Both the position numbers and the translations under genes were made by a program. The notes under the pieces were generated by a model. It saw only the letters and a program-made list of their open reading frames with translations. It was not told the origin of the DNA and searched no databases. Positions 7,563 through 57,915 of a DNA stretch of 64,000 nucleotides are shown piece by piece (positions within the stretch are counted from its first letter, which is position 1; each line of letters begins with the position of its first letter). Source of the stretch: Actinomycetota bacterium (GTDB taxonomy: Bacteria; Actinomycetota; Nitriliruptoria; Nitriliruptorales; Nitriliruptoraceae); NCBI GenBank assembly GCA_019347575.1, contig JAHWKY010000015.1, positions 1-64,000 on the forward strand. Direction: 5' to 3'.

Positions 7563-8027
7563 TCAGGAGCGGTCGGACCAGACGGGCAGGCCGAAGTAGC
7601 GCAGCCGGTCGGGGAAGTCACCGATCACGCGCCAGTCCATCGCGTACGCGTGGGCCAGCCGATCGAGGTCGTCGTCCTCGAGATCGCCGGCGATGTAGGC
7701 GCGCAGCTCGGCCACGAAGGTGTCGCTGTGGAGGGGGAACACGACGTCGACGACGCGGTGGTTGATCGCGACCCAGACGTGGTCGAGCTCGGCGCCACCG
7801 ACGTCGAGGCCACCACGGATGACGGTCGCCTCGAGCTCGAGACGGGACGCGACGTGGGCGACGCGCCGAGCGGCGTCGCGCACGTCGCGGGGCGTGAAGG
7901 GCGCCCGGGCGTGCTCGCGGGCGAGCGCGGCGACGAGCTGCGGACCGGTCGGGACGGGGAACGTGGCGGGACGGAAGCGCGCGGGGCGCCGCGGGGCGAG
8001 CGCGTGACCCTCGCGGCGCTGCGGCAT
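7563..8027 (-). CDS. Hypothetical protein with faint transglutaminase-like end
   Basis: 154 residues, not confidently recognised. The stretch ELDHVWVAINHRVVDVVFPL resembles the His/Asp part of transglutaminase-like folds (His in DHVWV, Asp in VVDVVFP). I see no matching active-site Cys, so catalysis is doubtful. ATG 8027 has a strong GGAGG eight bases upstream. It is divergent from the FabL-like reductase gene, sharing a 154-base upstream region. Confidence 0.65.
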   Translation of the reverse strand: MPQRREGHALAPRRPARFRPATFPVPTGPQLVAALAREHARAPFTPRDVRDAARRVAHVASRLELEATVIRGGLDVGGAELDHVWVAINHRVVDVVFPLHSDTFVAELRAYIAGDLEDDDLDRLAHAYAMDWRVIGDFPDRLRYFGLPVWSDRS

Positions 8028-9678: not shown

Positions 9679-11879
9679 GCGCTCACCTCCGTGGTCGTCG
9701 CTGCGGAGCCTGCCAGGTCGGCGAGGCGTTGGGCGAGCAACGTCTGTCGGTTGAGGGGTACGTCGTGGTGGGCAGCCACCTGCAGCGCGGCTGCCTGACC
9801 CACCGTGATCAGCGCGCGCTGGGCCCGGGTCACCGCGGTGTAGGCCAGGTTGCGCCACAGCATCGCGCGGTGCGAGCTGTCGACGACGAACACGACGACC
9901 GGCCACTCGCCACCCTGCGACTTGTGCACCGTCACGGCCCACGCCGGCACCAGATCGCGGACCGCGATGGTGTCGTAGGTCACCTCGCCCCGCGGGAACA
10001 GCACCCGCAGCTCGCGCTTGCCCGCGTCGACGTCCACCACGCGACCCACATCGCCGTTGCTGACGTCGAGCTCGGGATCGTTCCGCGTCTGCATCACGCG
10101 GTCGTGCTCGTGGAAGCCGCCCACGTCCGGCCGCCCCGCAGCGGGGTTGAGCGCCGCCTTCAGGGCTTCGTTCAACGCGTCGACCCCGGCGTCCCCACGG
10201 TAGATGGGAGCGACGACCTGCACCTGCTCGACGTCGACACCGAAGAAGTCGGGCGCGCGGTTCGCGATCGCCTCGACCACCCGGGCGACGATGCCGCGAC
10301 GTGGGCTCTCGGCGTGGAACAGGTCGCCGTCGCTGCCGCTGAGATCCCAGACCTGTCCGTTGTTGATCGCGTTCGCCAGCGCGACGATGCGGCTCTCCGC
10401 CGCCTGCCGGTGGATCTCGGTCAGGGTGACGTGCGGCACGATGCCGCTGCGGAGGAGATCGCGGAGCACGTCGCCTGGCCCGACGGGAGGGAGCTGGTCC
10501 GGGTCCCCGACGAACAGCAGGTGGGCGCCGTCCTCGATCGCGGCGGTGAGGTGCGCCGCGAGCGAGGTGTCCGCCATCGACACCTCGTCACAGACGATGA
10601 GGTCGAACGGGAGCCGCTCGCCCCGCCCGTAGCGGAAGGCGAACCCGGTGCCGCCCGCCACCGGACGGGCCTCGAGCAGCCGATGGACGGTCGAGGCGGG
10701 ATGGCCGACGAGCTCCTCGATCCGCTTCGCGGCGCGCCCGGTCGGGGCGCACACCGCCACGGACAGCCCGACGGCTTCCGCGGCGTCGACGACCTCGGCG
10801 ATCGTGCGGGTCTTGCCCGTGCCCGGCCCTCCCGTCAGCACCGTGACTGGGTGGTCGAAGACGAGCTGGACGGCCTGAGCTTGTCCCGCCGTGAGGTCGT
10901 CGGAGGGCTCGACCGTGGGGGCGAACGGACGCAACCGCGAGTGCGCGACGGACAGTCGCGCGATGTCCTCGGCGAGGTCCCGCTCCGCAGCGAGGCCGCG
11001 GGGCGTGTACAGGGCATCCACGACGCCGTCTGGCGCGGTGACCCGCTCGCGGACGAGCGCGCCCTCGGCCTCGGCGATCTCCACCCCCCGCACCGCGGCC
11101 ACGACGTCCACCTTCAGCAGGGTGGCGGCTTCCTGCGTGCACTGTGAACGCGTGAGGTACTGGTGGCCGTCACGTCGGCGCGCCGCCGCCATCGCCGCTC
11201 GGGCACCCGCGGCCAGGCGCTGCCCGTCGAGAGGGTCGACGCCCAGGTGTTGGCCGAGTGCGTCGGCGTGGGCGAACCGGGCACGTTCGACCTCGAGTAG
11301 CCCGTAGGGGTTCGCGCGCAGGATCTCCGCAGCGGTGGCTCCGAAGTGCGCGTGGGCGGCGCGTGTGACCGTGTGGGGAACCCGCGCCGGTTCGAGCAGC
11401 TGCACGAGTTGTGCGAAGGCGAGTCCGGCTCGCCAGCGTTCGTGGAGTGCGTCAGCCTCCTCGCGCTCGAGTCCGGCCTCGGAGACGAGCCGGTCGGGCT
11501 CGTGCTCGATGACGCGGCCGGCTCCGGCTCCGAACACGGTGAGGACACGCTGGATGGCACGGGCCGAGACGTCCTCGAAGCGGTCGGACTGCAGGAAGGT
11601 GCGCAGTCCCTCCGCGGTCGTCGGCGCGACCTGCTCGTAGAAGAGCGCGTCGAACGTCTCGCCGTGCCGCGGGTGGTCCACCCATCGACCCACGAGGCGG
11701 ACGTGCTGGCCCTGGACGAGGTCGGACAGCGGACCGACACAGGCTGCACCGGTGCCGTCGTCAAGTTGCAGCTCGACCACCCCGTAGCCGGTGTCGCGGT
11801 TGCGGAAGCGCACACCGACGACCTCGCCGGTGAGCTCCTCGGACTCGAACAGGCGCTCCACAGCGGGAGCCTGCCACAC
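9675..11879 (-). CDS. recD2: RecD2-like ATP-dependent DNA helicase (SF1B)
   Basis: 734 residues, the length typical of RecD2, the helicase found without RecBC. Order: N-terminal OB-like domain (GEVVGVRFRNRDTGYG), helix-hairpin-helix region (VFGAGAGRVIEHEPDRLV), Walker A GGPGTGKT near residue 350, Walker B CDEVSM near 430, GDPDQLPPVGPGDVL (motif III), and C-terminal VHKSQGGEWPVV with TAVTRAQRAL (motifs V/VI). It unwinds DNA 5' to 3' in repair. Start uncertain: GTG 11879 is annotated and GTG 11861 is equally possible. Neither has a strong ribosome site. Confidence 0.9.
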   Translation of the reverse strand: MWQAPAVERLFESEELTGEVVGVRFRNRDTGYGVVELQLDDGTGAACVGPLSDLVQGQHVRLVGRWVDHPRHGETFDALFYEQVAPTTAEGLRTFLQSDRFEDVSARAIQRVLTVFGAGAGRVIEHEPDRLVSEAGLEREEADALHERWRAGLAFAQLVQLLEPARVPHTVTRAAHAHFGATAAEILRANPYGLLEVERARFAHADALGQHLGVDPLDGQRLAAGARAAMAAARRRDGHQYLTRSQCTQEAATLLKVDVVAAVRGVEIAEAEGALVRERVTAPDGVVDALYTPRGLAAERDLAEDIARLSVAHSRLRPFAPTVEPSDDLTAGQAQAVQLVFDHPVTVLTGGPGTGKTRTIAEVVDAAEAVGLSVAVCAPTGRAAKRIEELVGHPASTVHRLLEARPVAGGTGFAFRYGRGERLPFDLIVCDEVSMADTSLAAHLTAAIEDGAHLLFVGDPDQLPPVGPGDVLRDLLRSGIVPHVTLTEIHRQAAESRIVALANAINNGQVWDLSGSDGDLFHAESPRRGIVARVVEAIANRAPDFFGVDVEQVQVVAPIYRGDAGVDALNEALKAALNPAAGRPDVGGFHEHDRVMQTRNDPELDVSNGDVGRVVDVDAGKRELRVLFPRGEVTYDTIAVRDLVPAWAVTVHKSQGGEWPVVVFVVDSSHRAMLWRNLAYTAVTRAQRALITVGQAAALQVAAHHDVPLNRQTLLAQRLADLAGSAATTTEVSA

Positions 11880-38843: not shown

Positions 38844-39389
38844 TCAGCGCTCGTCGTCGCCGTACATGCGGTCGCCGTCCGGTCTGGGTGACGTCCGAGC
38901 TCGAGCGCGCTGGAGGACCCGGCGGGCGAAGCGCCGTAGCGAGGGGAGTTGGAAGGGGATGATGAGCGCCCCGAAGACGATGGTCGTGACCGCGACGTTG
39001 CGCTGCTGCGGGAGTTCGACGGGGAAGTTGAGCACGAGGAAGCCGCCACCGATGACGGCCAGGCCCAACAGCAGAGGTGGGGTGTCCAGGGCGAGCCGTT
39101 GGGCCGCGCGGATGGGCTTGCGCAGCCAGGGCCACTGCGAGGACAGGATGCCCAGCCCACCGAAGACGATCGCCCATCCTGGTCCTGGCAGCGGGATCAG
39201 CAGCACGCCGACCCCGACGACGACCAGGCCGACGACGGTCAGTCCGACGCGACGCAGGCTGCGGCCGATCAGCCTGGGCCCCTGGGTCAGGCGGTCGACG
39301 CGCTGGGACCGCTGCTTCGAACGCTGCGGGGGCGACCGCGGCGTGAGGCGGTCTCGGACTGGCTCGGACTCGGAGCGCTCGGCGCTCAG
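38844..39389 (-). CDS. PGPGW-motif membrane protein (TIGR02611-like), unusual start
   Basis: About 181 residues. Basic N-terminus (EPVRDRLTPRSPPQRSKQR), then helix 1 (VGLTVVGLVVVGVGVLLI) leading into the motif PLPGPGWAIVFGGLGIL, a loop (WPWLRKPI), and two further hydrophobic segments. Function unknown. The first helix lies upstream of the only GTG in the frame (39206), so the true start must be further up. No ATG, GTG or TTG exists there, and the best candidate is CTG 39389 overlapping the regulator stop as CTGA. Confidence 0.75.
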   Translation of the reverse strand: MSAERSESEPVRDRLTPRSPPQRSKQRSQRVDRLTQGPRLIGRSLRRVGLTVVGLVVVGVGVLLIPLPGPGWAIVFGGLGILSSQWPWLRKPIRAAQRLALDTPPLLLGLAVIGGGFLVLNFPVELPQQRNVAVTTIVFGALIIPFQLPSLRRFARRVLQRARARTSPRPDGDRMYGDDER

Positions 39390-40054
39390 CTCGGCACCAC
39401 AAACACCAACCGGGCCACGTCCGAGGACAGCTCGACCTCGCCACCGGGGCCCGCCGTCCCCACGACCCGCACCCCCTTGTCGTCGGCTGTCGTCACCTTA
39501 CCGATGCCGCCCGGCTTGAGTCCGGCGTTCGCGAGCCGGCGCATCAGATCGACGTCGGTCTGCAGCTCCTCGGAGATCCGGGTGACGCGCACGTTGCCGC
39601 TTCCGGCCTCGACGAGAGTGATCTCGTCCTCGCGCTCAGGCGGGTTGGACGAGCCGGGGATCGCGTTGCCGTGGGGACAGACACCCGGATCGCCGAGCAG
39701 CTCGACGAGGCGTCGCTCGACGTCGTCGGAGATGACGTGCTCCCACTTGCACGCTTCCTGGTGGATCTGCTCCCACGGCAGGCCGATGACGTCGTGGAGC
39801 AGACGTTCGGCGAGACGGTGCTTGCGCGCGACACTGACCGCGAGATCGCGCCCCGGCTTGGTCAGCTCGATGACGCGATCGTCCGCGACGTGGACGTAGC
39901 CGTCGTCCTCGAGACGTGCCACCGTCTCGGACACGGTCGGGGCGGCCAGCCCGAGCCGCTCCACGAGCCGTGCCCGCAGCGGCGGGATCGACTCCTCCTC
40001 GAGCTCGAGGACGGTGAGCAGGTACTGCTCGGTCGTGTCGTGGAGATCGGCCAC
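39386..40054 (-). CDS. ideR: DtxR/IdeR-type iron-dependent repressor
   Basis: 222 residues, close to DtxR in layout: winged HTH (PPLRARLVERLGLAAPTVSETVARLEDDGYV), dimerisation/metal region (KHRLAERLLHDVIGLPWEQIHQEACKWEHVISDDVERRL) with His, Glu, His, Cys, Glu and His ligands, and a C-terminal SH3-like domain. The Cys in EACKWEH fits iron (DtxR) not manganese (MntR) proteins. DtxR's Met10 position (DTTEMYL) is Gln here (DTTEQYL). GTG 40054 follows GGGAGG. Divergent from the ferric ABC ATPase, with an iron box between. Confidence 0.93.
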   Translation of the reverse strand: MADLHDTTEQYLLTVLELEEESIPPLRARLVERLGLAAPTVSETVARLEDDGYVHVADDRVIELTKPGRDLAVSVARKHRLAERLLHDVIGLPWEQIHQEACKWEHVISDDVERRLVELLGDPGVCPHGNAIPGSSNPPEREDEITLVEAGSGNVRVTRISEELQTDVDLMRRLANAGLKPGGIGKVTTADDKGVRVVGTAGPGGEVELSSDVARLVFVVPS

Positions 40055-40099
40055 GGCCGCACCTCCCTCCATCGTCGCGCATCCGCGACGGCCGTCAGA

Positions 40100-40118
40100 T
40101 AAGGGTAGCCTTACCTCT
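40100..40118. promoter_or_regulatory. Iron box 1, between regulator and ferric ABC ATPase
   Basis: TAAGGGTAGCCTTACCTCT matches the IdeR/DtxR 19-base consensus (TWAGGTTAGSCTWACCTWA) at 16 positions. It lies 36 bases before the ATPase ATG and 45 bases from the regulator start, so it may control both. Confidence 0.8.
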
Positions 40119-40154
40119 GCTGTCGCCATCGAGAACGCCGTACGGGAGGATGGT

Positions 40155-41264
40155 ATGCCCACCGTCGAGACGACCGCACCGGCTGCGGTCGCCTGCGACG
40201 ATCTGCGTATCGCGTTCGGGGACACGGTGGCGGTCGATGGCCTCGACCTGGTGGTGGCGCCCGGGAAGGTGACCGCGCTCCTCGGCCCCTCAGGGTGCGG
40301 GAAGACCACGACGTTGCGCGCCATCGCCGGATTCGTCACGCCTCAGGCCGGTCGGGTCTTCCTCCACGGCTCCCTGGTCGCCTCGCCGGGCCAGTGCGTC
40401 CCGCCGGAGCGGCGTCGGGTCGGGATGGTGTTCCAGGACTACGCGCTGTTCCCCCACCTGACGGTCGCCGAGAACGTCGCCTACGGCCTGCGTTCGCGTC
40501 CCGACCGGGCGCGGCGCATCGCCGAGGTCCTGGCCCTGGTGGGGTTGAGCGATCTGGGTCATCGTCGCCCTGGCGAGCTGTCGGGCGGGCAGCAGCAGCG
40601 GACCGCCCTGGCACGGGCGCTCGCGCCCGACCCGGAGGTCATCCTTCTCGACGAGCCGTTCTCCAACCTCGACGCCGGTCTGCGCTCGGCGGTCCGCTCC
40701 GACGTCCGCGAGATCCTCCGCCGGGCCGGCGCCACCGCGATCGTGGTCACCCACGACCAGGAGGAAGCGCTGTCGCTGGCGGACGAGGTCGCCGTGATGT
40801 CCAGCGGGCGGGTCCACCAGGTCGCCGCCCCCCACACCCTCTACACCCGACCCGCCGATCGGTTCGTGGCCTCGTTCGTCGGAGACGCCGACCTCCTACC
40901 GGGCCGTCGCGTGGACCGGCACACCGTCGAGACGCCGCTGGGGCGGCTCCCGACGCTCGAACCGGTCACGGCCACGATCGTCGACGTGGTGATCCGCCCC
41001 GAATCGCTGCGCCTCACACCCGACGACGGCGGTCCGTGCGAGGTCCAGGAGGTGACCTACTTCGGCCACGATCAGCTGGTGCGGGTCCTGCTGAACGACG
41101 GCACGTCGGTCCGCTCGCGTCTCGGACCGGAGCCGACCCTGCGACCTGGCGAACGCGTGCGCGTCGAGCTCGACGGCGCCGTCGTCGCCTTCGCCGACGG
41201 CCAGCGAACCCAGACCATCCACCACGCGACGGAGCTCGTCGACGTGCACGGCGACCGCTCCTGA
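40155..41264 (+). CDS. fbpC: Ferric iron ABC transporter ATP-binding protein (FbpC-like)
   Basis: 369 residues. Walker A GPSGCGKTTT, Q-loop VFQDYALFPHLTV, signature LSGGQQQRTALARAL, Walker B VILLDEPFSNLD, His-loop VVTHDQEEAL, then a C-terminal TOBE-type regulatory domain (ATIVDVVIRPESLRL). The whole is FbpC/FutC-like. ATG 40155 with GGGAGG. Preceded by iron box 1. The matching permease and binding protein are 6 kb away. Its stop overlaps the flavoprotein gene. Confidence 0.92.
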   Translation: MPTVETTAPAAVACDDLRIAFGDTVAVDGLDLVVAPGKVTALLGPSGCGKTTTLRAIAGFVTPQAGRVFLHGSLVASPGQCVPPERRRVGMVFQDYALFPHLTVAENVAYGLRSRPDRARRIAEVLALVGLSDLGHRRPGELSGGQQQRTALARALAPDPEVILLDEPFSNLDAGLRSAVRSDVREILRRAGATAIVVTHDQEEALSLADEVAVMSSGRVHQVAAPHTLYTRPADRFVASFVGDADLLPGRRVDRHTVETPLGRLPTLEPVTATIVDVVIRPESLRLTPDDGGPCEVQEVTYFGHDQLVRVLLNDGTSVRSRLGPEPTLRPGERVRVELDGAVVAFADGQRTQTIHHATELVDVHGDRS

Positions 41265-42655
41265 CCTCGAACGCCCACCTGATCATCCTCGGTGCTGGCC
41301 CGGCCGGCGTCGGTGCGGCCTACCGCGCAGCCCGCAGCGGCCACGACGTGACCGTCCTCGAACGAGCCGACCGGGTCGGAGGGGCCGCCGGGAGCTTCGA
41401 GGTCGATGGGGTGCGGGTGGACCACGGCAGCCACCGTCTGCACGCGAGCATCGAACCCGCGATCCTCGACACGCTGCGCGGACTGCTCGGCGAGGACCTC
41501 CAACGCCGGCCTCGACGCGGGCGCATCCGGCTGGCCGAGCGCTGGCTGGCGTTCCCCCTCACACCGGGTGATGCCCTGCGCAACCTCCCTCCGGGCTTCG
41601 CCGTGCGCACGGCCTTGGAGGCGGGCACGGCGTGGGCACGGTCGGCTCGATCGGACACGTTCAGTGAGCGACTGCGAGCCAGTCTTGGCCCGACGATGTG
41701 CGAACGCTTCTACTTCCCGTACGCGAGGAAGCTGTGGGGTGTGGAGCCCGATCGACTGAGCGGCGAGCAGGCCCGTCGGCGCGTCAGCGCCGACACACCA
41801 GGCAAGCTGATCCGCCGCGTCGTCGCCGGACGCGACCCCGAGCGGCGCACGTTCCTGTACCCACGCCGAGGCTACGGCCAGCTCTGGGAGGCCCTCGCGG
41901 AGGCGGCGGCAGCCGACGGCGCCGAGATCCGTCTGGGCACCTCGGCCGAAGCGGTCGAGATCGACGGCGACGGCGTCACCGTCAGCACGACGGACGGCGA
42001 TGTCCAGGGCAACGCCGTGTGGTCGACCATCCCCATGCCAGCACTCGCCGGCATGCTCCGTCCGGCCCCGCCCCCCGTCGTCCTCGCCGCTGCGGCGCGG
42101 CTCCGCTCACGCGCGATGGTGCTCGTCTACCTCACGCTCCCGATGGCTCAGTACACGCCCTTCGACGCGCACTACCTCCCCGAGGAGTGGACACCGGTCA
42201 CGCGCATCTCCGAGCCGATGAACTACCGCGATGCTCGAGGTCACGGCGACCCCAGCGACCGGACCGTCCTGTGCGCCGAGATCCCCTGCGACGCTGGCGA
42301 CGACCTCTGGACCTCCTCGGACGACGACCTCGCCGCGGTCGTCATCGACGCGCTTACGCGCGCCGGGCTTGCACGACCGGACCCATCGGCGATCACGACC
42401 GTGCGTCTCCCGTCGGCCTACCCCATCTACGAGGTCGGCTGGGAGGACGCGTTCGAGCCCCTCGATGCGTGGCTGGAGCGTCAACCGAGGATCCTGACCT
42501 TCGGGCGTCAGGGTCTGTTCGCCCACGACAACGCCCACCACGCCCTGGCGATGGCGTGGGCGGCCGCGGATGCGCTGCTGCTCGACGGGCGGGTGGATCA
42601 CGGCGTGTGGGAACGAGCTCGCGCGCGCTTCCGCGATCACATCGTCGAGGACTGA
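41261..42655 (+). CDS. FAD-dependent amine-oxidase-type flavoprotein, UDP-galactopyranose-mutase/PPO-like
   Basis: 464 residues. FAD-binding Rossmann motif LIILGAGPAGVGAAYRAARSG, then VLERADRVGGAAGSFE, the DHGSHRLH segment, and C-terminal FAD contact (GRQGLFAHDNAHHALAMAWAAADALL). Such proteins, related to protoporphyrinogen oxidase and UGM, are often found with glycosyltransferases. No ATG/GTG/TTG lies in frame near the fold's start. CTG 41261 overlaps the ATPase stop as CTGA. It is on the iron-box 1 transcript. Substrate open: a lipid-linked sugar or porphyrin-type substrate. Confidence 0.8.
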   Translation: MTSNAHLIILGAGPAGVGAAYRAARSGHDVTVLERADRVGGAAGSFEVDGVRVDHGSHRLHASIEPAILDTLRGLLGEDLQRRPRRGRIRLAERWLAFPLTPGDALRNLPPGFAVRTALEAGTAWARSARSDTFSERLRASLGPTMCERFYFPYARKLWGVEPDRLSGEQARRRVSADTPGKLIRRVVAGRDPERRTFLYPRRGYGQLWEALAEAAAADGAEIRLGTSAEAVEIDGDGVTVSTTDGDVQGNAVWSTIPMPALAGMLRPAPPPVVLAAAARLRSRAMVLVYLTLPMAQYTPFDAHYLPEEWTPVTRISEPMNYRDARGHGDPSDRTVLCAEIPCDAGDDLWTSSDDDLAAVVIDALTRAGLARPDPSAITTVRLPSAYPIYEVGWEDAFEPLDAWLERQPRILTFGRQGLFAHDNAHHALAMAWAAADALLLDGRVDHGVWERARARFRDHIVED

Positions 42656-44289
42656 GCCCCTCGACCCGCGAGTACGGCCGGATCGTTCAGCACGCGCCAC
42701 ACGGCAGGCACGACGTGGCGCAGGTAGCGGACCGGGCGCACGAAGGACCGACCGACGCTCCGGAAGCCGTAGCTGATCGGTACCTCGCGGTAGCGGAACC
42801 CCTTGAGGAGCAGCTCGAGGGTCAGCACCTGCGCGTAGTTGTAGTCGTGTGCGACGACCGTGGCGCGGGCCGCTTCGGCCGAAAGCAGCCGGTAGCCGCT
42901 CTGTCCGTCGGTGATGCGCCGACGTGCGACGAAGCTCAGTACCAGGCTCAGGAGGCGGTTGCCCAGGCGGCGATGGGGACGCATCCGATCGATGCGGCCC
43001 ATGAAGCGCGAGCCGACGACGTAGTCGGCGGTCCCCTCGAGGACGGGTGAGGCCAGTCGTTCGAGTTCCTCCGGTGCGTACTCGCCGTCGGCATCGCAGA
43101 AGGCGATGGCGGCGGCGCTTCGCTGGACAGCTTCGGCGAGGCCGACGCGCACGGCGGCACCGAGGCCCCGGTTGGTTCCCAGGGAGACCACCTCCGCACC
43201 GGCGGCAGCCGCTCGCGCGGCGGTGGCATCGGTCGATCCGTCGTCGATGACGAGGACGCGCACGGGTCGTCCGCACACCTCCGCCGGGGCGCGGGCGATG
43301 ACGTTCGCGACCGTGGCTTCCTCGTCGTGAGCCGGGAGGAAGAGCACCACCGGTGCGGTATCGGCGGATGGGGGCGCCGTCGACCGTGCCCGGAGCTGTC
43401 GAGGGAGGCGGAGTCGCCCCAGCATCCCCGGCGCGGGCAGCACGAGGGCGACCGCCCCGGTGACCAGCGAGTAGCCGGTCTTGAGCGCGTGGGCGACCAG
43501 CGCGATGGCGAGAGCGGTCGGGGCGTCCACACCGAGCGCCGTGAGGGCCGCGGTCCCCGCGGCTTCGTACGTGCCGAACCCCCCCGGCGCGACGGCCAGG
43601 AGCTGGGCGGCCACGGTGACCGCTGTGACCCCGACCGCCTCGACGGGGCTCAGGTGGACGTTCACGAGCGCCGCGGCGTGCCACACCACCACCGCTTCCA
43701 GGACCCAGGCACCGACCGTGAGCAGTGCGACCCCGGCTCCCGGCAGGCGGATCTGGGCATCCCGGGACAGCCGCCGCAGCCAGACGATGCCTGCCGCCGC
43801 TACCGCGAACGCGACGATGGCCAGTCCCCCGGCGAGCCAGCCCCACCGCCCCACGGCTCCGCCCACGAGCCGGGGTCCCGCGACCGCCGCGAGCAGGCCG
43901 AGGGCCGCGACGTCCGCTGCCCGTAGCGTGACCGTCGAGGCCGTGGCCGTGGCGGTGGGTACGCCGACGCGACGGACGACGCTGGCCGCGCGCAGCGGCT
44001 CGCCCAGACGCAGCGGCAGGACGTGGTTGCCTCCGAGAGTGACGTGGATCGCCGCGGTGGCGTGACCCAGCGGCAACCCCGGGACGACCCGGCACCACGC
44101 GAGGGCACGGAGCAGGAACGCGATGCCGTAGACGCCCAGCACGGCAGCCGTCGCCAGGGGTGCGGCCACGATCGCGCGCCCCGCTTCCCTCAGCGTCGCG
44201 CCATCGACCGTCCTGAGCACCCACCAGGCGGCGAGCGCGGCGAAGGCCACCACCAGCCCCCCGCGCCACCGACGCCACCCGTCCGACAC
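42637..44289 (-). CDS. Fused flippase-like/LPG-synthase-type membrane domain and GT2 glycosyltransferase
   Basis: 550 residues. N-terminal half: about eight transmembrane helices with the UPF0104/lysylphosphatidylglycerol-synthase-TM pattern (GGNHVLPLRLGEPLRA, APGGFGTYEAAG). C-terminal half: GT2 (DPM1-type) domain, VVLFLPAHDEEATVANVIA, VIDDGSTDAT, the nucleotide-metal motif CDADGEYAPEEL, and DYVVGSRFMG with DGQSGYRLL. The fusion joins polyprenyl-phosphate sugar synthesis with a flippase-like domain. GTG 44289 follows GGAGG by six bases. The 3' end overlaps the flavoprotein gene by 19 bases. Divergent from the epimerase across iron box 2. Confidence 0.88.
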   Translation of the reverse strand: MSDGWRRWRGGLVVAFAALAAWWVLRTVDGATLREAGRAIVAAPLATAAVLGVYGIAFLLRALAWCRVVPGLPLGHATAAIHVTLGGNHVLPLRLGEPLRAASVVRRVGVPTATATASTVTLRAADVAALGLLAAVAGPRLVGGAVGRWGWLAGGLAIVAFAVAAAGIVWLRRLSRDAQIRLPGAGVALLTVGAWVLEAVVVWHAAALVNVHLSPVEAVGVTAVTVAAQLLAVAPGGFGTYEAAGTAALTALGVDAPTALAIALVAHALKTGYSLVTGAVALVLPAPGMLGRLRLPRQLRARSTAPPSADTAPVVLFLPAHDEEATVANVIARAPAEVCGRPVRVLVIDDGSTDATAARAAAAGAEVVSLGTNRGLGAAVRVGLAEAVQRSAAAIAFCDADGEYAPEELERLASPVLEGTADYVVGSRFMGRIDRMRPHRRLGNRLLSLVLSFVARRRITDGQSGYRLLSAEAARATVVAHDYNYAQVLTLELLLKGFRYREVPISYGFRSVGRSFVRPVRYLRHVVPAVWRVLNDPAVLAGRGAQSSTM

Positions 44290-44360
44290 GCCGTCCTCCG
44301 TCTCCTTGTGCCACCCCACGGAACTGCCCGTACCGGCGCCGCTTCGGTTCACCACGTTGG

Positions 44361-44379
44361 TTCGGTTAGGCTGCCCTAA
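44361..44379. promoter_or_regulatory. Iron box 2, between the GT2 fusion and the iron uptake operon
   Basis: TTCGGTTAGGCTGCCCTAA matches the IdeR consensus at 16 of 19 positions. It holds the perfect inverted repeat GTTAGG-N4-CCTAAC (44365-44380). It lies 58 bases before the epimerase ATG and 71 bases from the GT2-fusion start, so both directions may be controlled. Confidence 0.82.
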
Positions 44380-44437: not shown

Positions 44438-45343
44438 ATGCACGTCGTCGTAACCGGCGCGGCTGGGTTCATCGGGCACCACGTCGTCGCGGCGTTGGTG
44501 GGACGGGGCGATGAGGTGACCGCGATCGACCGGCGCGGGGGTGCCGGGCCCGGCCGGGCCCTGGTCGACGACCTCGCGGTCCCGTCGGCCGCGAGCATCG
44601 CGGCGCTGGCGACGTGCGATGCGGTCATCCACCTCGCCGGCCGCCCCGGTGTCCGCGACAACGCCCCGCACATCGAGCGGCACCGCATCCGTGACAACGT
44701 GCTCGCAGGCGCCCGTGTCCTCGCTGCGACGCCGCTGGCCACGCCCGTCGTCGTCGCCTCCTCGTCGTCGGTCTACGGCGGCGCCAGGGGGACCTCGGTC
44801 CCGCGACCCTCCCGCGAGGACGACCCCGTCGCCCCCCGAGGTGGCTACGCCGCGTCGAAGGTCGCACTGGAGAGGCTCTGCGTCGAACGCGCTGCGAAGG
44901 GCGGCCGCGTCGCCGTCGCACGACCGTTCACCGTGGCGGGTGAGGGTCAGCGCCCCGACATGGCGATCGCGCGGTGGATCGAGGCGGTACGACGGGGACA
45001 GCCCGTGACCGTCATCGGTAGCCCCCGACGGAGTCGTGATGTGACCGACGTGCGCGACGTCGTCCGAGCGCTGATCGAAATGGTGGACCAGGGCGTGACC
45101 GGCACGCTGAACATCGGGACCGGGGTCGCACACCGACTCGGCGACATCGTCACCAGCATCGCATCCGCGCTCGGCCAGGAGCCACGGGTGAGGGTGGTCG
45201 CCGCCGACGGGGAGGAACCTCCTGCGACCCTCGCCGACACGACCCGGTGCCGACGGCTCCTCGGCTTCGTCCCGGTCACCGACCTCGCTGACATCGTCCG
45301 CCGTCAGGTCGAGTCCGTCCAGCCACTCAAGGAGGCGGTGTGA
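44438..45343 (+). CDS. NAD-dependent nucleotide-sugar epimerase/dehydratase
   Basis: 301 residues, extended SDR. VVVTGAAGFIGHHVV is the NAD loop, SSSSVYGG holds the catalytic Ser, YAASK the Tyr-Lys pair. NIGTGVAHRLGDIV and CRRLLGFVPVTDLADIV are typical of UDP-sugar 4-epimerases. First gene of the iron-box 2 operon; ATG 44438 with GAGGGG. The iron-binding protein follows one base after its stop. Its place in an iron uptake operon is unexpected. Confidence 0.9.
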   Translation: MHVVVTGAAGFIGHHVVAALVGRGDEVTAIDRRGGAGPGRALVDDLAVPSAASIAALATCDAVIHLAGRPGVRDNAPHIERHRIRDNVLAGARVLAATPLATPVVVASSSSVYGGARGTSVPRPSREDDPVAPRGGYAASKVALERLCVERAAKGGRVAVARPFTVAGEGQRPDMAIARWIEAVRRGQPVTVIGSPRRSRDVTDVRDVVRALIEMVDQGVTGTLNIGTGVAHRLGDIVTSIASALGQEPRVRVVAADGEEPPATLADTTRCRRLLGFVPVTDLADIVRRQVESVQPLKEAV

Positions 45344-45344
45344 G

Positions 45345-46352
45345 ATGCGCCATGCCCGTCGCACGATCGCGTCGCTGATCGTCCTGCTCGTCGCCGTGAC
45401 CGCCAGCGGCTGCGGCGGAGGTGCCGACGAGCTGGTGATCTACTCCGGGCGCGGTCGCTCGCTGGTCGGACCACTGCTCGACCAGTTCGCCGAGGAGACG
45501 GGGATCCCCATCGCGGTGCGCTACGGAGACTCCGGTGAGCTCGCCCTGCTGATCGCGGAAGAGGGTGCCGACTCCCCCGCAGACGTGTTCCTGTCACAGA
45601 GCCCGGGGGCGGTCGGGTTCCTCGCCGGCCGTGACCTGCTCGCCCCGCTCGACGAGGACCTTCTCGGACGCGTGGACGAGCGCTTCCGCGCTGGCGATGG
45701 GACCTGGGTCGGCGTGACGGGGCGGCAACGGGTGGTCGTGTACAACCAGGACCTCGTCGACCCCGACGAGCTGCCCTCCTCGGTGTTCGAGCTGACCGAG
45801 CCACCGTACGAGGGACGCATCGCGGTCGCCCCGCAGAACGCTTCGTTCCAGGACTTCGTCACCGCCATGAGGCTGGAGTACGGCGACGACCGCACGCTGA
45901 AGTGGCTGGAGGGCATGGCCGCGAACGGAGCCCGCGTCTACCCGAACAACAACGCCATCGTCGACGCCGTCAGTCGGGGCGAGGCCGAGCTCGGCCTGGT
46001 CAACCACTACTACAACTTCCGCTTCCTCGAGGAGGACCCCGACCTGCCGAGCCGCAACCACGTGCTCCCCGATGGTGACATCGGCGCTCTGCTCATCACC
46101 TCCAGCGTGAGCATCCTCGCCAGCTCCGACGACGGCGAGCGAGGTGACCGCTTCGCGTCGTTCCTGCTCTCCGAGGAGGCGCAGCGATACTTCTCCGACG
46201 AGACCTTCGAGTACCCCCTCGCTGCCGGGGTGGAACCGTCGCAGGAGCTGCCCCCGCTGGGATCGCTCGAGGTACCGGACGTGGACGTCGATGCGCTGTC
46301 CGACCTGGCGACGACCACCGACCTGATCGCGCAGAGTGGCCTCTCCGGTTGA
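45345..46352 (+). CDS. fbpA: Ferric iron ABC transporter substrate-binding lipoprotein (FbpA/FutA-like)
   Basis: 335 residues. Lipoprotein signal ending in VTASGCGGG. Type II periplasmic-binding fold opening with LVIYSGRGRSLVGPLLDQFAEETG, then VTGRQRVVVYNQDLV, and the adjacent tyrosines in GLVNHYYNF near residue 222 that bind Fe3+ in FbpA/FutA proteins. Exported and lipid-anchored to capture ferric iron. Start 45345, translation-coupled to the epimerase; its stop overlaps the permease by 17 bases. Confidence 0.92.
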   Translation: MRHARRTIASLIVLLVAVTASGCGGGADELVIYSGRGRSLVGPLLDQFAEETGIPIAVRYGDSGELALLIAEEGADSPADVFLSQSPGAVGFLAGRDLLAPLDEDLLGRVDERFRAGDGTWVGVTGRQRVVVYNQDLVDPDELPSSVFELTEPPYEGRIAVAPQNASFQDFVTAMRLEYGDDRTLKWLEGMAANGARVYPNNNAIVDAVSRGEAELGLVNHYYNFRFLEEDPDLPSRNHVLPDGDIGALLITSSVSILASSDDGERGDRFASFLLSEEAQRYFSDETFEYPLAAGVEPSQELPPLGSLEVPDVDVDALSDLATTTDLIAQSGLSG

Positions 46353-47979
46353 CCCCACCCTCCTGACGGAGGCACCGACCCCCCCGCGCCGCGCCGGGCG
46401 GCCAGCGGCCTGGCTGACCACCGTGACCAGCGGAGTGGCCCTGCTGTTCGCCGCGCCACTGGGCTTCCTCGTCATCCGCAACCTCTCGCGGGGCGGTGAC
46501 TTCGTCCGGCTCGCGACCTCGCCCGCGACCCTCGGACCTCTGGCGCGGAGCCTGTTGCTCGGGATCACCGTCACCATCGCCGCAGCCGTCATCGGCACGC
46601 TGTCGGCGTGGCTCGTCGTCCGCACGGACGTCCGGGGCGCACGTCTGTGGCGCGTGCTGCTCGCTCTCCCCCTCGTGATCCCGTCGTTCATCGGAGCCTT
46701 CTCGCTACTGGCGGCGTTCGCCCCTGGTGGCCTGATCGAGGGTGCCCTCGCGCCGCTCGGCGTGGCGCGCCTACCCGAGTTCCGGGGCTACGCAGCCGCC
46801 TCGTTCGTTCTCACGCTGCTCACCTTCCCCTACGTCTACCTCCCCGTGGCGGCCCGGCTCGACCAACTCTCGCCGTCGCTCGAGGAGTCCGCCCGGTTGC
46901 TGGGACGGCGCCCGTTGGAAGTCTTCACGAGCATCGTCCTGCCACAGATCCGCGGCGCCGTCCTCGCCGGCTCGCTGCTCGTGTTCCTCTACACCATCAG
47001 CGACTTCGGCGCGGTGCAGCTCCTGCGCTACGACACGCTCACGCGGGCGATCTTCGAGACCCGCGTCTTCGACTCCGCCACGTCGCTGACGCTGAGCCTC
47101 CAGCTGGGCCTTCTGGCCATCCTGATCGCGGCCTCGGAGCGCGGGATCACGAAGGGGCCGACCGTCTCGGCGGGGCCGCGTGCCGTCCGAGGACTGCGGT
47201 TGGAGCTCGGGAGGTGGCGTGCGGTCGCGACCGCGGTCGTCGCTGCGACGGTCGGGCTGGCGCTGCTGGCTCCCGTGGCGGTGCTCACCTTCTGGTCGGT
47301 GCGTGGGCTCGTGCGTGGATCGGGGCGGGCGAGCGCGGTCGCTGCGGACGTGGGGCAGCTCGTCGCTCCGGCGGTCAACACCGCCGTCGTCAGCGTGGTC
47401 AGCGCGGTGGTAGCGGTCATCATCGTGCTGCCGGTCGCGTACCTGACGGTCCGCCGCCCCAGCCGCACGGGGGGGGTCGCGAACGCGGTCGTGGTCGGCG
47501 GGTTCGCCCTGCCGGGTCTGGCGATCGCGCTCGCCCTGACGTTCTGGACCCTCCGCACACCGGGGCCGTTACGCGGCCTGTACCAGACCATGTCGCTGCT
47601 GGTGTTCGCCTACGTGGTGCACTTCGGGGCGCAGGCCCTGCGCACCGCGCAGGTCGCGGTCGCCGGTATCCCGCCTCGCCTGGAGGACGCCGCGCGCTCG
47701 CTCGGCGCGGGGCGCATGCGCCGGCTCTGGACCCTCGAGCTGCCGCTCATGACACCCGGCCTGCTCGCGGGCGCGGGTCTGGTGCTGCTCTCGACGATGA
47801 AGGAGCTGCCCGCGACGCTGCTGCTGGCTCCGGCCGGCTTCGAGACGCTCGCCACCCGGATCTGGGTCGCCGCGGAGGACGCGTTCGTCGCCGACGCGAG
47901 CATCGCGTCGCTGATCCTGATCGCGCTGTCCGGCGTGCTGACCTGGATCCTCGTGATCCGGCGGTCCGCGGCGCTGTGA
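46336..47979 (+). CDS. fbpB: Ferric iron ABC transporter permease, two fused domains (FbpB-like)
   Basis: 547 residues and about twelve membrane helices, in two halves each carrying an EAA coupling motif: SLEESARLLGRRPLEVFTSIVLPQIRG near residue 200 and RLEDAARSLGAGRMRRLWTLELP near 460. This twin-domain layout is typical of FbpB/SfuB. GTG 46336 lies inside the binding-protein gene. The partner ATPase at 40155 is separate. Its stop overlaps the GT-C gene (GTGA). Confidence 0.93.
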   Translation: MASPVDPTLLTEAPTPPRRAGRPAAWLTTVTSGVALLFAAPLGFLVIRNLSRGGDFVRLATSPATLGPLARSLLLGITVTIAAAVIGTLSAWLVVRTDVRGARLWRVLLALPLVIPSFIGAFSLLAAFAPGGLIEGALAPLGVARLPEFRGYAAASFVLTLLTFPYVYLPVAARLDQLSPSLEESARLLGRRPLEVFTSIVLPQIRGAVLAGSLLVFLYTISDFGAVQLLRYDTLTRAIFETRVFDSATSLTLSLQLGLLAILIAASERGITKGPTVSAGPRAVRGLRLELGRWRAVATAVVAATVGLALLAPVAVLTFWSVRGLVRGSGRASAVAADVGQLVAPAVNTAVVSVVSAVVAVIIVLPVAYLTVRRPSRTGGVANAVVVGGFALPGLAIALALTFWTLRTPGPLRGLYQTMSLLVFAYVVHFGAQALRTAQVAVAGIPPRLEDAARSLGAGRMRRLWTLELPLMTPGLLAGAGLVLLSTMKELPATLLLAPAGFETLATRIWVAAEDAFVADASIASLILIALSGVLTWILVIRRSAAL

Positions 47980-49397
47980 CCGGTCAGGAGCCGTCGCGGC
48001 GCCGTCTGGCCGTGGCAACGCTGCTCGCCGCGGTCCTTTCCGTCGCCGCCGTCCTGCCGGGGGCGTGGGCACGATCGACCTACGGCAACCACACCTCCGG
48101 GGACGAACCCCACTACCTGCTCACCGCCATCTCGTTGGGTGAGGACGCCTCCCTCGATGTCCGCGACGAGGTCGCCGACGAGCGCTACCGACCGTTCCAC
48201 GAGCAGCGCCTGAAGGTCCAGGCCGCGGAGCGCGACGACGGGACGATGGTCGTCCCCCACGATCCGCTGCTGCCCGCGCTCCTCGCGGGTCCCGTCCGCC
48301 TCGGCGGATGGCTCGCCGCCAAGCTGGCGCTCGCGCTCGTCGCGGGCGCGCTGGCGGCGCTGCTGGTGTGGACCGGCGTGCGACGGTTCCACCTCCCGTT
48401 GTCGGTGGTGGTGCCGACCGTGGTGCTGTTCGTCGCCACGGCCCCGCTCGCCGCCTACGGCACGCAGGTCTACCCCGAGCTGCCGGCCGCGCTAGCCGTG
48501 ACCGTTGCGGCTGCCGCGCTGCTCGGCCCCTTCCACCGCGGTGGCCAGGCTGCCCTCGTCCTCGCGGCGATCGGGCTGCCGTGGCTGTCGGTCAAGTACG
48601 TCCCGGTGGCAGCCGTCCTCGTCGCCATCGGGGCGTGGCAGCTCCACCGGCGCGGTGCGCGGCGCGCCCTCATCGGCTGGTCCGCAATGCTGGCGCTAGT
48701 GGGACTCACGTACGCGGTCGCCCACCTCGCCTGGTACGGGGGATGGACCGTCTACGCGTCGGGCGAGTTCTTCCGCGAGGCCGGCGGCGAGCTGACCGTC
48801 GTCGGCACCCGCCCTCGCTACGCCGCACGCAGCCAGCGTCTCATCGGGTTGCTGGTGGACCGCCACTTCGGCCTGGCCGCGTGGCAGCCGGCATGGCTGG
48901 CGGTCGTCCCGGCGCTGGCGGCGCTCGCGAGGTCGCGGCCACGGGGCTGGGCGGTGATCGCGGCGCCGACCCTCGTCGGCTGGCTCGTGGCCACGTTCGT
49001 CGCGCTGACGATGCACGGGTGGTGGTTCCCCGGGCGTCAGGTCGTCGTCGTGCTCCCACTGCTGGTGCTGGCGATCGCGTGGTGGGCCGCCCGGTCGCGT
49101 GTCGCGCGCTCGGTCGTGTGGACCCTCGGGGCCTTCGGGGCGGTCACCTGGGCGTGGTTCCTGGTCTCTGCCCTCAACGGCGACGTGACCGTGATCGTGG
49201 ACTTCGCCGCTATCGGCGACCCGATCTTCCAGGTCCGTCAGCCGCTGCTGCCCGACTACGTCCGACCGGGCGTCGGCACGTGGGTCAGGCACGGGGCGTG
49301 GATCGGGCTCGCCGTCGCCGTCGGCGCGTGGTCCTGGCGCCGGCCCGCCGGTGGTCGGGGTCCCATCTGGTCAGCTCGTTCCGGTCCCCGTGGGTGA
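47976..49397 (+). CDS. Integral-membrane GT-C-type glycosyltransferase-like protein
   Basis: 473 residues with about 9-11 membrane helices. An Asp-Glu pair (GNHTSGDEPHYLLTAI) sits in the first extracytoplasmic loop, as in polyprenyl-phosphate-dependent GT-C enzymes (PMT/ArnT type). MHGWWFPGRQVVVVLPLLVLA resembles their C-terminal part. It should transfer a sugar from a lipid carrier on the outer face. GTG 47976 is coupled to the permease (GTGA). It converges with the small lipoprotein, overlapping by 27 bases. Confidence 0.8.
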   Translation: MTGQEPSRRRLAVATLLAAVLSVAAVLPGAWARSTYGNHTSGDEPHYLLTAISLGEDASLDVRDEVADERYRPFHEQRLKVQAAERDDGTMVVPHDPLLPALLAGPVRLGGWLAAKLALALVAGALAALLVWTGVRRFHLPLSVVVPTVVLFVATAPLAAYGTQVYPELPAALAVTVAAAALLGPFHRGGQAALVLAAIGLPWLSVKYVPVAAVLVAIGAWQLHRRGARRALIGWSAMLALVGLTYAVAHLAWYGGWTVYASGEFFREAGGELTVVGTRPRYAARSQRLIGLLVDRHFGLAAWQPAWLAVVPALAALARSRPRGWAVIAAPTLVGWLVATFVALTMHGWWFPGRQVVVVLPLLVLAIAWWAARSRVARSVVWTLGAFGAVTWAWFLVSALNGDVTVIVDFAAIGDPIFQVRQPLLPDYVRPGVGTWVRHGAWIGLAVAVGAWSWRRPAGGRGPIWSARSGPRG

Positions 49398-49562
49398 GCC
49401 GGTGTGGGTACCTGACTGCGACCCCGTGTGGGTGCCGGACTGCGATCCGGTCTCGTTGCCGCCCCCGTCGATCTCGCGGACGCCGCCGCCGTCGTCGGTG
49501 CCGCACGCCGCGGTCAGGATCATCCCAGCTGCCAGCAACGCGCCGGTGAGTCGTCGTGTCAT
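49371..49562 (-). CDS. Small lipoprotein with GTHTGSQ repeats, iron-box controlled
   Basis: 63 residues. Lipoprotein-like signal (LTGALLAAGMILTAACGTDD), then an acidic/Gly-rich linker and a tail made of repeated Ser-Gly-Thr-His-Thr-Gly units (SQSGTHTGSQSGTHTGSPTG). No fold is expected and I do not recognise it. ATG 49562 has GGAGG nine bases upstream. Iron box 3 lies 42-63 bases before the start. Probably iron-repressed. The His/Ser/Thr tail could be a metal-binding or glycosylated surface tag (inference). Confidence 0.7.
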   Translation of the reverse strand: MTRRLTGALLAAGMILTAACGTDDGGGVREIDGGGNETGSQSGTHTGSQSGTHTGSPTGTGTS

Positions 49563-49603
49563 CGCGTGGGACCTCCAGGTCGGTACCCGCCGCCGAGGGG
49601 GCA

Positions 49604-49625
49604 AGGTTAGGGAAGCCTAACCTAT
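49604..49625. promoter_or_regulatory. Iron box 3, highly symmetric
   Basis: AGGTTAGG-N4-CCTAACCT is a perfect 8-bp inverted repeat (49604-49623). TTAGGGAAGCCTAACCTAT within it matches the IdeR consensus at 16 of 19 positions. It lies just upstream of the small lipoprotein (minus) and 137 bases from the LPRTG mini-protein start (plus). Confidence 0.85.
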
Positions 49626-49761: not shown

Positions 49762-50070
49762 GTGACCCAGGCCCTGCACCGCCACCGCACACACCTGCTG
49801 GTGTGTGTGCTGTGCATCGCGCTCGGGCCGTGGCTGATCCTCGCCACGCCTGCGGCCGCGCAGAACGCGCAGACTGTGGACGTATTCGTCACCGTTCCCC
49901 ACGACTCGGGGCCAGCCGGGCCCGACGCCCCGTCCGCGAGTCCCGATGAACCCCTCCCCCGCACCGGCGCTTCGGCGCGAGACCTCACCGTGATCGCTAC
50001 GGCGCTGGTCGCGCTCGGAACCGCCGTGCTCAAGTCAACCAACTCCCTGAAGCGAGCTTCCCATGCGTAA
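49762..50070 (+). CDS. Exported mini-protein with LPRTG sorting-like motif
   Basis: 102 residues. Signal peptide ending near TPAAAQNA, then only about 40 residues (QTVDVFVTVPHDSGPAG), then LPRTG, a hydrophobic segment (LTVIATALVALGTAVL) and basic end (KSTNSLKRASHA). Too small to be an adhesin by itself. It may be a subunit or anchor of a surface structure with the next two genes. GTG 49762 follows GGAGG by eight bases. The stop overlaps the following gene by 8 bases. Confidence 0.75.
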   Translation: MTQALHRHRTHLLVCVLCIALGPWLILATPAAAQNAQTVDVFVTVPHDSGPAGPDAPSASPDEPLPRTGASARDLTVIATALVALGTAVLKSTNSLKRASHA

Positions 50071-55747: not shown

Positions 55748-55818
55748 AGGCGGGGACGGGAATCGAACCCGTGATAAGGGCTTTGCAGGCCCCTGCCTTA
55801 CCACTTGGCTACCCCGCC
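55748..55818 (-). tRNA. tRNA-Cys (GCA)
   Basis: Cloverleaf with acceptor GGCGGGG/CCCCGCC, D-stem GCCA/GGCA, anticodon loop CTGCAAA (anticodon GCA), T-loop TTCGATT, discriminator T. No CCA encoded. Confidence 0.93.
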
Positions 55819-55965
55819 GAGGCCGGGGCGAGGGTAGCGAGTCGGGCATGGGGCCTCGCTTCCACGACCTCGCATCCCGCTACACGTCGACGGTCAGCGC
55901 GCAACCGGCCGAGCACGGCGTCGGCGGTTACGGTGCGGCAACCGCGAAGCGTCGGAGACCGCCCC

Positions 55966-57915
55966 GTGACCTCACCTCGGAAACGTCCACGTCGTCCGCT
56001 GACCCGGCGCGAGTTCATCGCCCGCGCGGCGACGTTGTCCGCGGCCGCGTGGGCCGTGCCACTGACGGGGCGTGCGGGGCGGGAGGCGTGGGCGCAGACA
56101 CGCGGGATGGTCTTCGACCCATCCGGTACGACGCTCGAGCGCACCATCACCACCGTGGGCGGCGACGGCCCCTACTTCCCGCTGACCTTCGGGCCCGGGT
56201 GGCCGATCGAGGTGCGGACCGAGCTCGCCGAGGCGAGGTCGGGGCGTGAGGACCGACGCGTCGCGTTGGCCGCGTTCCTGCACCTCACCGACTACCAGCT
56301 CGTCGACTGCCAGAGCCCGGCTCGCGTGGAGTTCTTCGACCGGACCGCGGATCAGCCCACCGACTTCAACCCGGTGAGCGCCGCCCAGCGACCACAGGAG
56401 GCGTTCGTCCCCCACGTCGTCGAGGCACTGATCCGCCGCGCGGGTGACGTCGTTCGGGGTCCGGTGACGGGGCGCCAGGTGTCGTTCGCCATCGCGACCG
56501 GCGACAACCTCGACAACATCCAGACCAACGAACTGCGCTGGTACATGACCCTGCACGATGGTGGCGAGTTCACGCCCAACAGCGGCTCGGCCGACGTCGT
56601 CGAGTCCGTGCAGACCTTCGCCGAGCCGGAGTTCTACGACCCCCACTACTACCACCCCGAGCCGATCGACGACCCGCGGGGCGACGTGTACAAGGACGTC
56701 TACGGCTTCCCCGACTTCCCCGGCGCCATCGACGCGATCCGCAACCCGATCCAGGCGGTCGGCCTGCCGATGCCCTGGTACACGGCGTACGGCAACCACG
56801 ACGCGCTCGTGCAGGGCAACGTCGAGCCCAACCCGCTGTTCGAGTCGATCGCGATCGGGCCGCTCAAGGTGCTGGCGCCGGGCGGGGCGCCGGGCGACTT
56901 CTGGCGCGGCTTGCAGAACCAGGATCCCGGCGTCGTGACGCACGCGCTGGCCTCGGGTGTCGTCCGCCCCGTCGCCGCGGACTCCGAGCGGGCGTTCATC
57001 GATGCGCGTGCGTACATCCGCGCCCACCTCGACTCCCCCGCGACGCCCGGCCCGGTCGGGCACGGCTTCACCGAGGACAACCTCGACGCCGGAACGCTCT
57101 ACTACATCTTCGAGGTCGTCCCGGGCATCCGCGGCATCACGCTGGACACGACCAGTCCGGCGACCTCGGAGGGATCGATCACGCCGGAACAGATGGCGTG
57201 GCTCGAGGCACGCCTCGTCGAGGTCCACTCGCGCTACTACGACGCTGGCGGCGCGGTCGCGACGACCGGCAACGACGACCAACTCGTCGTGATCTTCAGC
57301 CACCACCGCCCCGCGTCGATGCCGCTTCCGAGCTTCGACGCGTCGCAGCCGTTGGCGGGTGGGGCGGCCCTCGTCGAGCTCCTCCAGCGCTTCCCCAACG
57401 TGGTCCTGTGGGTGAACGGCCACAGCCACTTCAACCGCATCGTCGTGCACCCGCACGACGATCCCGTGCGGGGCTTCTGGGACATCACGACTTCGGCCCA
57501 GATCGATCCCCCGCAGCAGGCACGCATCCTCGAGGTCACCGACAACCGTGACGGGACGCTTTCGATCTTCACCACCATCATCGACCACGCCGGGCCGCCG
57601 CAGACGGCCGTCGGGCCCTACGACCTGCTGGGCCTGGCCGCGATCGGTCGTGAGCTGTCGTACAACGACTACCAGGGCAGCGCCGCCGGAGCGATCGGTG
57701 AGTCCACTGACCGCAACACCGAGCTGCTCGTCGTCGCCCCGTTCGCGCTGCCTGCGCCAGATGGTGGCTCGGGTGGCGACAGCGGTGGCGGGGCGCCGGC
57801 ACCCCCGCCCGCCCCGCCGTTGCCGACGACCGGAGCGGGGCTGGGAGCGGCGGCGTTCGGGGCGGCGGTCGCGGGTGCGTTCGCATTGCGGGACCGAGGT
57901 CGCGAGCGAGGTTGA
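55966..57915 (+). CDS. Tat-exported metallophosphoesterase with LPTTG tail (TIGR03767-like)
   Basis: 649 residues. Twin-Arg signal (PLTRREFIARAATLSAAAWA). Metallophosphoesterase motifs in order: LHLTDYQLVDC, IATGDNLDNIQTNE, YTAYGNHDALVQGN, VVIFSHHRPAS and VLWVNGHSHFNRI. Gly-rich linker then LPTTGAG, hydrophobic helix (LGAAAFGAAVAGAFAL) and basic end. Exported folded with metals and fixed to the envelope, probably scavenging phosphate from extracellular phosphodiesters. GTG 55966 has GGAG eight bases upstream. Ends inside a strong hairpin. Confidence 0.92.
   Translation: MTSPRKRPRRPLTRREFIARAATLSAAAWAVPLTGRAGREAWAQTRGMVFDPSGTTLERTITTVGGDGPYFPLTFGPGWPIEVRTELAEARSGREDRRVALAAFLHLTDYQLVDCQSPARVEFFDRTADQPTDFNPVSAAQRPQEAFVPHVVEALIRRAGDVVRGPVTGRQVSFAIATGDNLDNIQTNELRWYMTLHDGGEFTPNSGSADVVESVQTFAEPEFYDPHYYHPEPIDDPRGDVYKDVYGFPDFPGAIDAIRNPIQAVGLPMPWYTAYGNHDALVQGNVEPNPLFESIAIGPLKVLAPGGAPGDFWRGLQNQDPGVVTHALASGVVRPVAADSERAFIDARAYIRAHLDSPATPGPVGHGFTEDNLDAGTLYYIFEVVPGIRGITLDTTSPATSEGSITPEQMAWLEARLVEVHSRYYDAGGAVATTGNDDQLVVIFSHHRPASMPLPSFDASQPLAGGAALVELLQRFPNVVLWVNGHSHFNRIVVHPHDDPVRGFWDITTSAQIDPPQQARILEVTDNRDGTLSIFTTIIDHAGPPQTAVGPYDLLGLAAIGRELSYNDYQGSAAGAIGESTDRNTELLVVAPFALPAPDGGSGGDSGGGAPAPPPAPPLPTTGAGLGAAAFGAAVAGAFALRDRGRERG

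Follow-up and report, generated by a model that had tools for sequence, protein, structure and literature searches.

A cargo-less modular lipoprotein under an IdeR-type iron box, and its possible glycosylation by a neighbouring glycosyltransferase pair, in a member of the Nitriliruptoria

The window, by which we mean the whole stretch of 64,000 nucleotides analysed here, carries on its minus strand a gene for a 63-aa protein (49371–49562; ATG at 49562, stop codon at 49371–49373). A Shine-Dalgarno sequence, GGAGGT, is located at 49571–49576 on the same strand, 8 nt 5′ of the start codon. The translated open reading frame, MTRRLTGALLAAGMILTAACGTDDGGGVREIDGGGNETGSQSGTHTGSQSGTHTGSPTGTGTS, comprises a signal peptide, C20, the CGTDDGGGVREIDGGG module and a Thr/Ser/Gly tail. 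By inspection, we found an Arg in the n-region, a hydrophobic core and the lipobox MTRRLTGALLAAGMILTAA-C, of which the Cys is invariant across 16 aligned relatives. With these features of the Lgt/Lsp pathway, the product is a putative lipid-anchored bacterial lipoprotein. It gave no match in Pfam, and neither a cupredoxin, an M75 nor an Iron_transport domain is present. Scans for sigma-70-type promoters and for terminators detected no candidate.

Upstream of this gene, at 49604–49623, lies the perfect inverted repeat AGGTTAGG-N4-CCTAACCT, which is exact over its whole length (AGGTTAGGGAAGCCTAACCT). In the register 49607–49625, it matches the published 19-bp IdeR consensus, TTAGGTTAGSCTAACCTAA, at 16 of 19 positions, and its core is TTAGG-N4-CCTAA, the half site reported for a single dimer (PMC10317159). 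The preliminary description of this DNA, a tiny repeat-tailed lipoprotein under a perfect inverted repeat, was confirmed for the open reading frame, the Shine-Dalgarno sequence and the repeat, and several of its details were corrected. The palindrome is indeed upstream, at 41 and not 42 bases from the ATG. The amino acid repeat exists as well, but its unit is GSQSGTHT in two copies (49401–49448, minus strand) instead of GTHTGSQ, and the tail, said to consist of Ser, Gly, Thr and His only, contains Gln and Pro in addition to these four. Furthermore, the span assigned to the gene, 49371–49625, takes in the box at its far end, whereas the gene itself ends at 49562.

The same region harbours genes for a DtxR/IdeR-family regulator (39386–40063, minus strand), an FbpC-like ATPase (40146–41264, plus), an FAD amine-oxidase-like protein (41267–42655, plus) and a fusion of UPF0104/LPG_synthase_TM with GT2 that resembles polyprenyl-phosphate-sugar synthases (42637–44355, minus; Pfam PF03706 and PF00535). 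The best NCBIfam matches of this fusion were AglJ/PpgS-like and remained under the cut-offs. These are followed by genes for a NAD-dependent sugar epimerase/dehydratase (44438–45343, plus; PF01370), an FbpA-like substrate-binding lipoprotein (45345–46352, plus; PF13343), an FbpB-like two-domain ABC permease (46336–47979, plus; PF00528) and P0001, a 473-aa multispanning GT-C-like membrane protein (47976–49397, plus). The P0001 gene and the lipoprotein gene are convergent, and the 3′ end of the latter overlaps the former, which stops at 49397, by 27 bases. In several relatives, homologues of the regulator adjoin the cluster or a gene of the lipoprotein family described below, and in G054 a homologue of the FAD amine-oxidase-like gene comes immediately after a tail-only lipoprotein gene. 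On the side of the iron box that faces away from the lipoprotein gene, 139 bases from it, starts a gene for a secreted protein with a sortase-like C-terminus (LPRTGA; 49762–50070, plus), and another such protein (LPTTGA) is encoded at 55771–57915 (plus).

We searched 61 related genomes for relatives of the 63-aa lipoprotein. One was found in G035 (single-sequence match, E 4.8e-13), and further relatives also matched. When the frames were read in these relatives, the matches were seen to span the N-terminus of longer proteins. The preliminary description had overlooked this N-terminal module of larger iron lipoproteins. This module consists of the lipobox, the motif CGxDDGxxVRxI and a low-complexity Ser-Gly, Ser-Ala or Thr-Gly tail; its most conserved part is the motif right after the lipid-modified Cys, unlike what a linker would look like. 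The cargo found in the relatives is a domain of the type Cupredoxin_1, Fea1 (E 4.5e-23) or imelysin (E 1.1e-30); L080 adds an Iron_transport (P19-type) domain whose score barely exceeds the cut-off. The window protein has the lipobox, the motif and a Ser/Thr/Gly tail, and it matches the module profile with E 6.4e-20, being itself one of the 16 profile rows. It very probably belongs to this modular iron-lipoprotein family. The preliminary description had named a lack of homologues with the same repeat as an objection to its own reading; homologues with repeat tails are present, with Ser-Gly or Thr-Gly tails.

Two known groups come close. The N-terminus of the FEA1-related lipoprotein family NF038033 matches the window protein with E 4.4e-8 (residues 9–62 against 4–57 of 406), a likeness over about 55 positions that covers the signal, lipobox, DDG motif and repeat tail. 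However, the score of 32.2 bits lies below the cut-off of 250, and the defining Fea1 domain is missing. The EfeO/EfeM/P19-type iron lipoproteins (Cupredoxin_1, Peptidase_M75, Iron_transport PF10634) are related in that the same module occurs in relatives with these domains, whereas the window protein has none of them, and in the window genome we found neither FTR1 nor imelysin (M75), both of which were sought as partners. Throughout the class, no more than 2 of 66 genomes contain FTR1, which means that most EfeO-like lipoproteins there have no FTR1 gene to accompany them. The single imelysin in the class is a module fusion, as are three of the four Fea1 proteins; the fourth, in G040, lacks the module and a long repeat tail, and its genome has no P0001 homologue. 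Judged from sequence, the module is shared by iron-uptake lipoproteins in Nitriliruptoria, where we place the named relatives Egibacteraceae and Euzebyaceae, and beyond. Weak module matches in G127 and G228 belong to phosphate-binding-type (PstS-like) proteins by sequence and were excluded, as were those in G006, G026 and G033, which were weak or located in longer, different proteins.

Allowing up to three mismatches, the palindrome occurs three times in the window, compared to 0.04 occurrences expected from shuffles, and all three matches are intergenic and within one cluster of IdeR, iron-type ABC and glycosyl genes. IdeR-type boxes are also located between the GT2 and epimerase genes (44361–44379, plus; 16/19) and between the ideR-like and fbpC-like genes (40100–40118, plus; 14/19). 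Of the 34 genes that encode the module, 23 are preceded, at no more than 130 bp, by a box scoring 14/19 or better; for random stretches of these loci the figure is 1.1%. The box-less genes in G042 and G055 sit within same-strand gene runs. The iron box of the preliminary description is thus borne out, and the placing of the lipoprotein gene under IdeR-type control is supported by the 16/19 match and by the boxes in its family. The resemblance to DtxR/IdeR iron regulons consists of the 19-bp box and of a regulator gene inside the cluster; such control is already known, and the novelty is limited to the target. Elsewhere in the window genome, a sigma-factor-like gene (L041 7843–8787) is preceded, at a distance of about 45 bases, by a TTAGG-N4-CCTAA box (16/19) at 7779–7797 of L041 (G000 C12, about 32778).

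P0001 itself has no match in Pfam, NCBIfam or PDB, and PDB profile searches gave no GT-C match. In the sequence test for GT39 (PMT/PMT_2), neither P0001 nor 20 homologues showed a PMT match. The distant homologue L151 has weak PMT_2, PMT and Alg9-like matches (E 0.004 to 0.024, with PMT_2 at 0.004), all under the cut-off, and Pfam scans of the other distant homologues showed no PMT_2 match. An AlphaFold model built from two sequences was too poor (pLDDT 43) and was discarded. The predicted topology is N-in with a large outside loop after TM1, and an invariant Asp43-Glu44 pair is located at the start of this loop. Because of this topology with its invariant Asp-Glu, together with the GT2 donor-synthase fusion and the linkage, we regard P0001 as a candidate GT-C glycosyltransferase. 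Topology, synteny and a single weak match underlie this label, which is the weakest step of our argument.

We then compared the distribution of the module with that of its partner genes. At a cut-off of E 1e-8 or better, P0001 homologues are present in 20 of the 66 class genomes, and all 20 encode the module. The only convincing module without a detected P0001 homologue among these 66 is that of G044, which does carry UPF0104-GT2. There, the contig with the module breaks off about 150 bp beyond the gene and a second one begins in the permease gene, so that the assembly gap may hold a P0001 homologue. Among 396 genomes sampled from the phylum, 8 of the 9 strong P0001 carriers outside the class encode the module. 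With genomes treated as unrelated, the association has a hypergeometric P of about 1e-15 in each set (class; outside). Module genes are often neighbours of the genes for the GT-C-like protein and the UPF0104-GT2 fusion, and outside the class adjacent arrangements are seen again in G066, G077, G095, G157, G210 and G393. In G060, G050 and G373, a module gene is located far from the GT-C-like gene. The 19 class genomes that have a UPF0104-GT2 homologue (E 1e-60) all encode the module. By contrast, the FbpB-like permease family is present in 60 of the 66 class genomes, and the module does not track it. Single polypeptides of about 1000 residues combine the P0001 homologue with UPF0104 and GT2 in L037, L045 and L047. 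The co-distribution could stem from joint inheritance of one cluster. A search of the open-access literature found no paper on an association between this lipoprotein module and glycosyltransferase genes.

These observations point to a mechanism in which iron scarcity would cause IdeR to leave the box, and the lipoprotein and sugar-transfer genes would be expressed together upon this release. The GT2 part would attach a sugar to polyprenyl phosphate, this donor would be flipped across the membrane, and the GT-C-like protein would move the sugar onto Ser/Thr of the lipoprotein tail. The product would be a stalk that is anchored in the membrane, bears glycans and stands next to the Fbp-type iron transporter. 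In relatives this stalk would hold an iron-capturing domain; in the window lineage the stalk alone would have been kept. To this overall reading, a cargo-less modular lipoprotein under an IdeR-type box whose tail is glycosylated by the GT2/GT-C-like pair, we assign a probability of roughly 0.5. Tail glycosylation as such is plausible and is the reading we favour, at about even odds. The preliminary description had also proposed the tail as a glycan acceptor, and the support for this is circumstantial: the module goes along with the genes for the GT-C-like protein and the UPF0104-GT2 fusion, but it does not follow the iron-type permease.

A close known parallel is the Ppm1-Pmt system, which glycosylates lipoproteins in Corynebacterium (PMC3460810), and actinobacterial O-mannosylation is known to target Ser/Thr-rich stretches (PMC12757957). 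Lipoprotein O-mannosylation in C. glutamicum, Streptomyces and Mycobacterium (PMC3460810, PMC12757957) likewise combines a GT2 polyprenyl-phosphate-sugar synthase with a multispanning transferase and acts on lipoproteins with Ser/Thr-rich low-complexity stretches; the window lipoprotein would be such an acceptor. The fusion at 42637–44355 (PF00535 + PF03706) has the domains of such a synthase. On the other hand, the window system is linked to an iron box and tied to one lipoprotein family, its transferase candidate has no Pfam PMT/PMT_2 match, and the fusion partner of the donor GT2 is UPF0104, where M. tuberculosis has Lnt. Since P0001 fails the GT39 sequence test, we do not claim membership in the Ppm1-Pmt group.

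Cargo-less copies were found in eight genomes (the window genome, G035, G044, G053, G054, G057 with two copies, G001 and G052), and it has to be considered whether they are mere leftovers. At the orthologous locus of genus g17, G051 and G037 encode a full cupredoxin protein, whereas G052 shows a clean deletion of the cupredoxin, which demonstrates that cargo is indeed lost at times. In addition, there are broken copies: in G052 (C95) the tail contains a TAG and the cupredoxin has decayed, G058 (C237) has a TAG and a frameshift, and G061 has an apparent frameshift within the repeat. Recoding of TAG in the tails of G052 and G058 was rejected, because the downstream cupredoxins are damaged too (internal deletion, frameshift). 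In L035 (7319–7840) and L036 (3568–4168), from two genera, an in-frame TAG in the Ser-rich tail is followed by a damaged cupredoxin; this is cargo decay under way. The window gene might accordingly be regarded as a functionless relic, left behind when an iron-binding domain was lost. We consider this unlikely for several reasons. In the tree of the GT-C-like protein, the window, G035 and G054 form one deep clade (support 99/97), and their lipoproteins are all cargo-less and Thr-rich, a type of tail that in G058 is found with cargo. Box, start, frame and motif are retained, with 14 of 16 motif residues identical to G035 at a dS near 1. All four nucleotide differences between the two GSQSGTHT units are synonymous (P=0.003), and in a neutral drift simulation at 0.5 substitutions per site, 0 of 20,000 runs preserved both the reading frame and 13 or more of the 16 motif residues. 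The pN/pS ratio was moderately low between the window and G035 (0.60), indicating a loose constraint on the tail, and was 0.36 between the two G057 copies. The window copy thus looks older and maintained, and given the clade with G035 and a third copy, the kept box and motif and the protein-level constraint, the cargo-less form is probably functional. A further short, Thr-rich lipoprotein without cargo (CGGDDRGDVEVEGSTTGGETSTTG...) is encoded in another family of the phylum (L171, about 11180–11415, minus); its gene has a 14/19 box and is 2.5 kb away from that of a distant P0001 homologue. In G057, a gene for an unrelated membrane protein (L079/L033 2035–2616, plus) separates copy a of the cargo-less lipoprotein gene from the gene of the P0001 homologue.

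A functional protein might nevertheless be unglycosylated. DDGxxVRxI could dock the lipoprotein to a partner in the membrane, such as the Fbp-type transporter, while the glycosyltransferases make a separate iron-controlled envelope glycan. The position of the strongest conservation, in the motif after the anchor Cys, would fit such docking, as would the module genes distant from the GT-C-like gene in G060, G050 and G373, and the presence of genes for an FAD amine-oxidase-like protein and an epimerase hints at a broader glycan pathway. However, the widespread permease contrasts with a module restricted to genomes with GT-C-like or GT2 genes, and the Fea1 lipoprotein of G040, in a genome without the GT-C-like gene, has neither the module nor the long tail; this alternative therefore seems improbable to us. 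Far less probable is a His/Thr lipopeptide that itself captures iron, zinc or copper, the other role that had been proposed for the tail. The window tail does contain two His and the gene has an iron box upstream, but His occurs in only 2 of the 31 tails compared and in neither of the nearest cargo-less copies (G035, G054), so that conservation gives this idea no support, and iron binding in the family resides in separate C-terminal domains. The glycosylated stalk remains our preferred reading.

The near-exclusive co-occurrence of the module with a likely sugar-adding pair suggests an iron-controlled sugar decoration of surface lipoproteins. More tentatively, and at slightly less than even odds, a new GT-C-like family and UPF0104-GT2 might form a dedicated iron-controlled system that decorates an interchangeable anchor-tail module, whose cargo would be one of several iron-capturing domains or, in the window genome, nothing, with the bare glycosylated stalk as a starvation product. 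The role that bacterial protein O-glycosylation plays for its carriers has been called an open question (PMC12757957). One anchor module joins four iron-lipoprotein domain families that are usually handled apart, and iron starvation would be linked to a likely protein-glycosylation pair and a candidate acceptor family that is partly defined by the motif after the anchor. With little beyond anchor and tail, the 63-residue protein would serve as a minimal test case.
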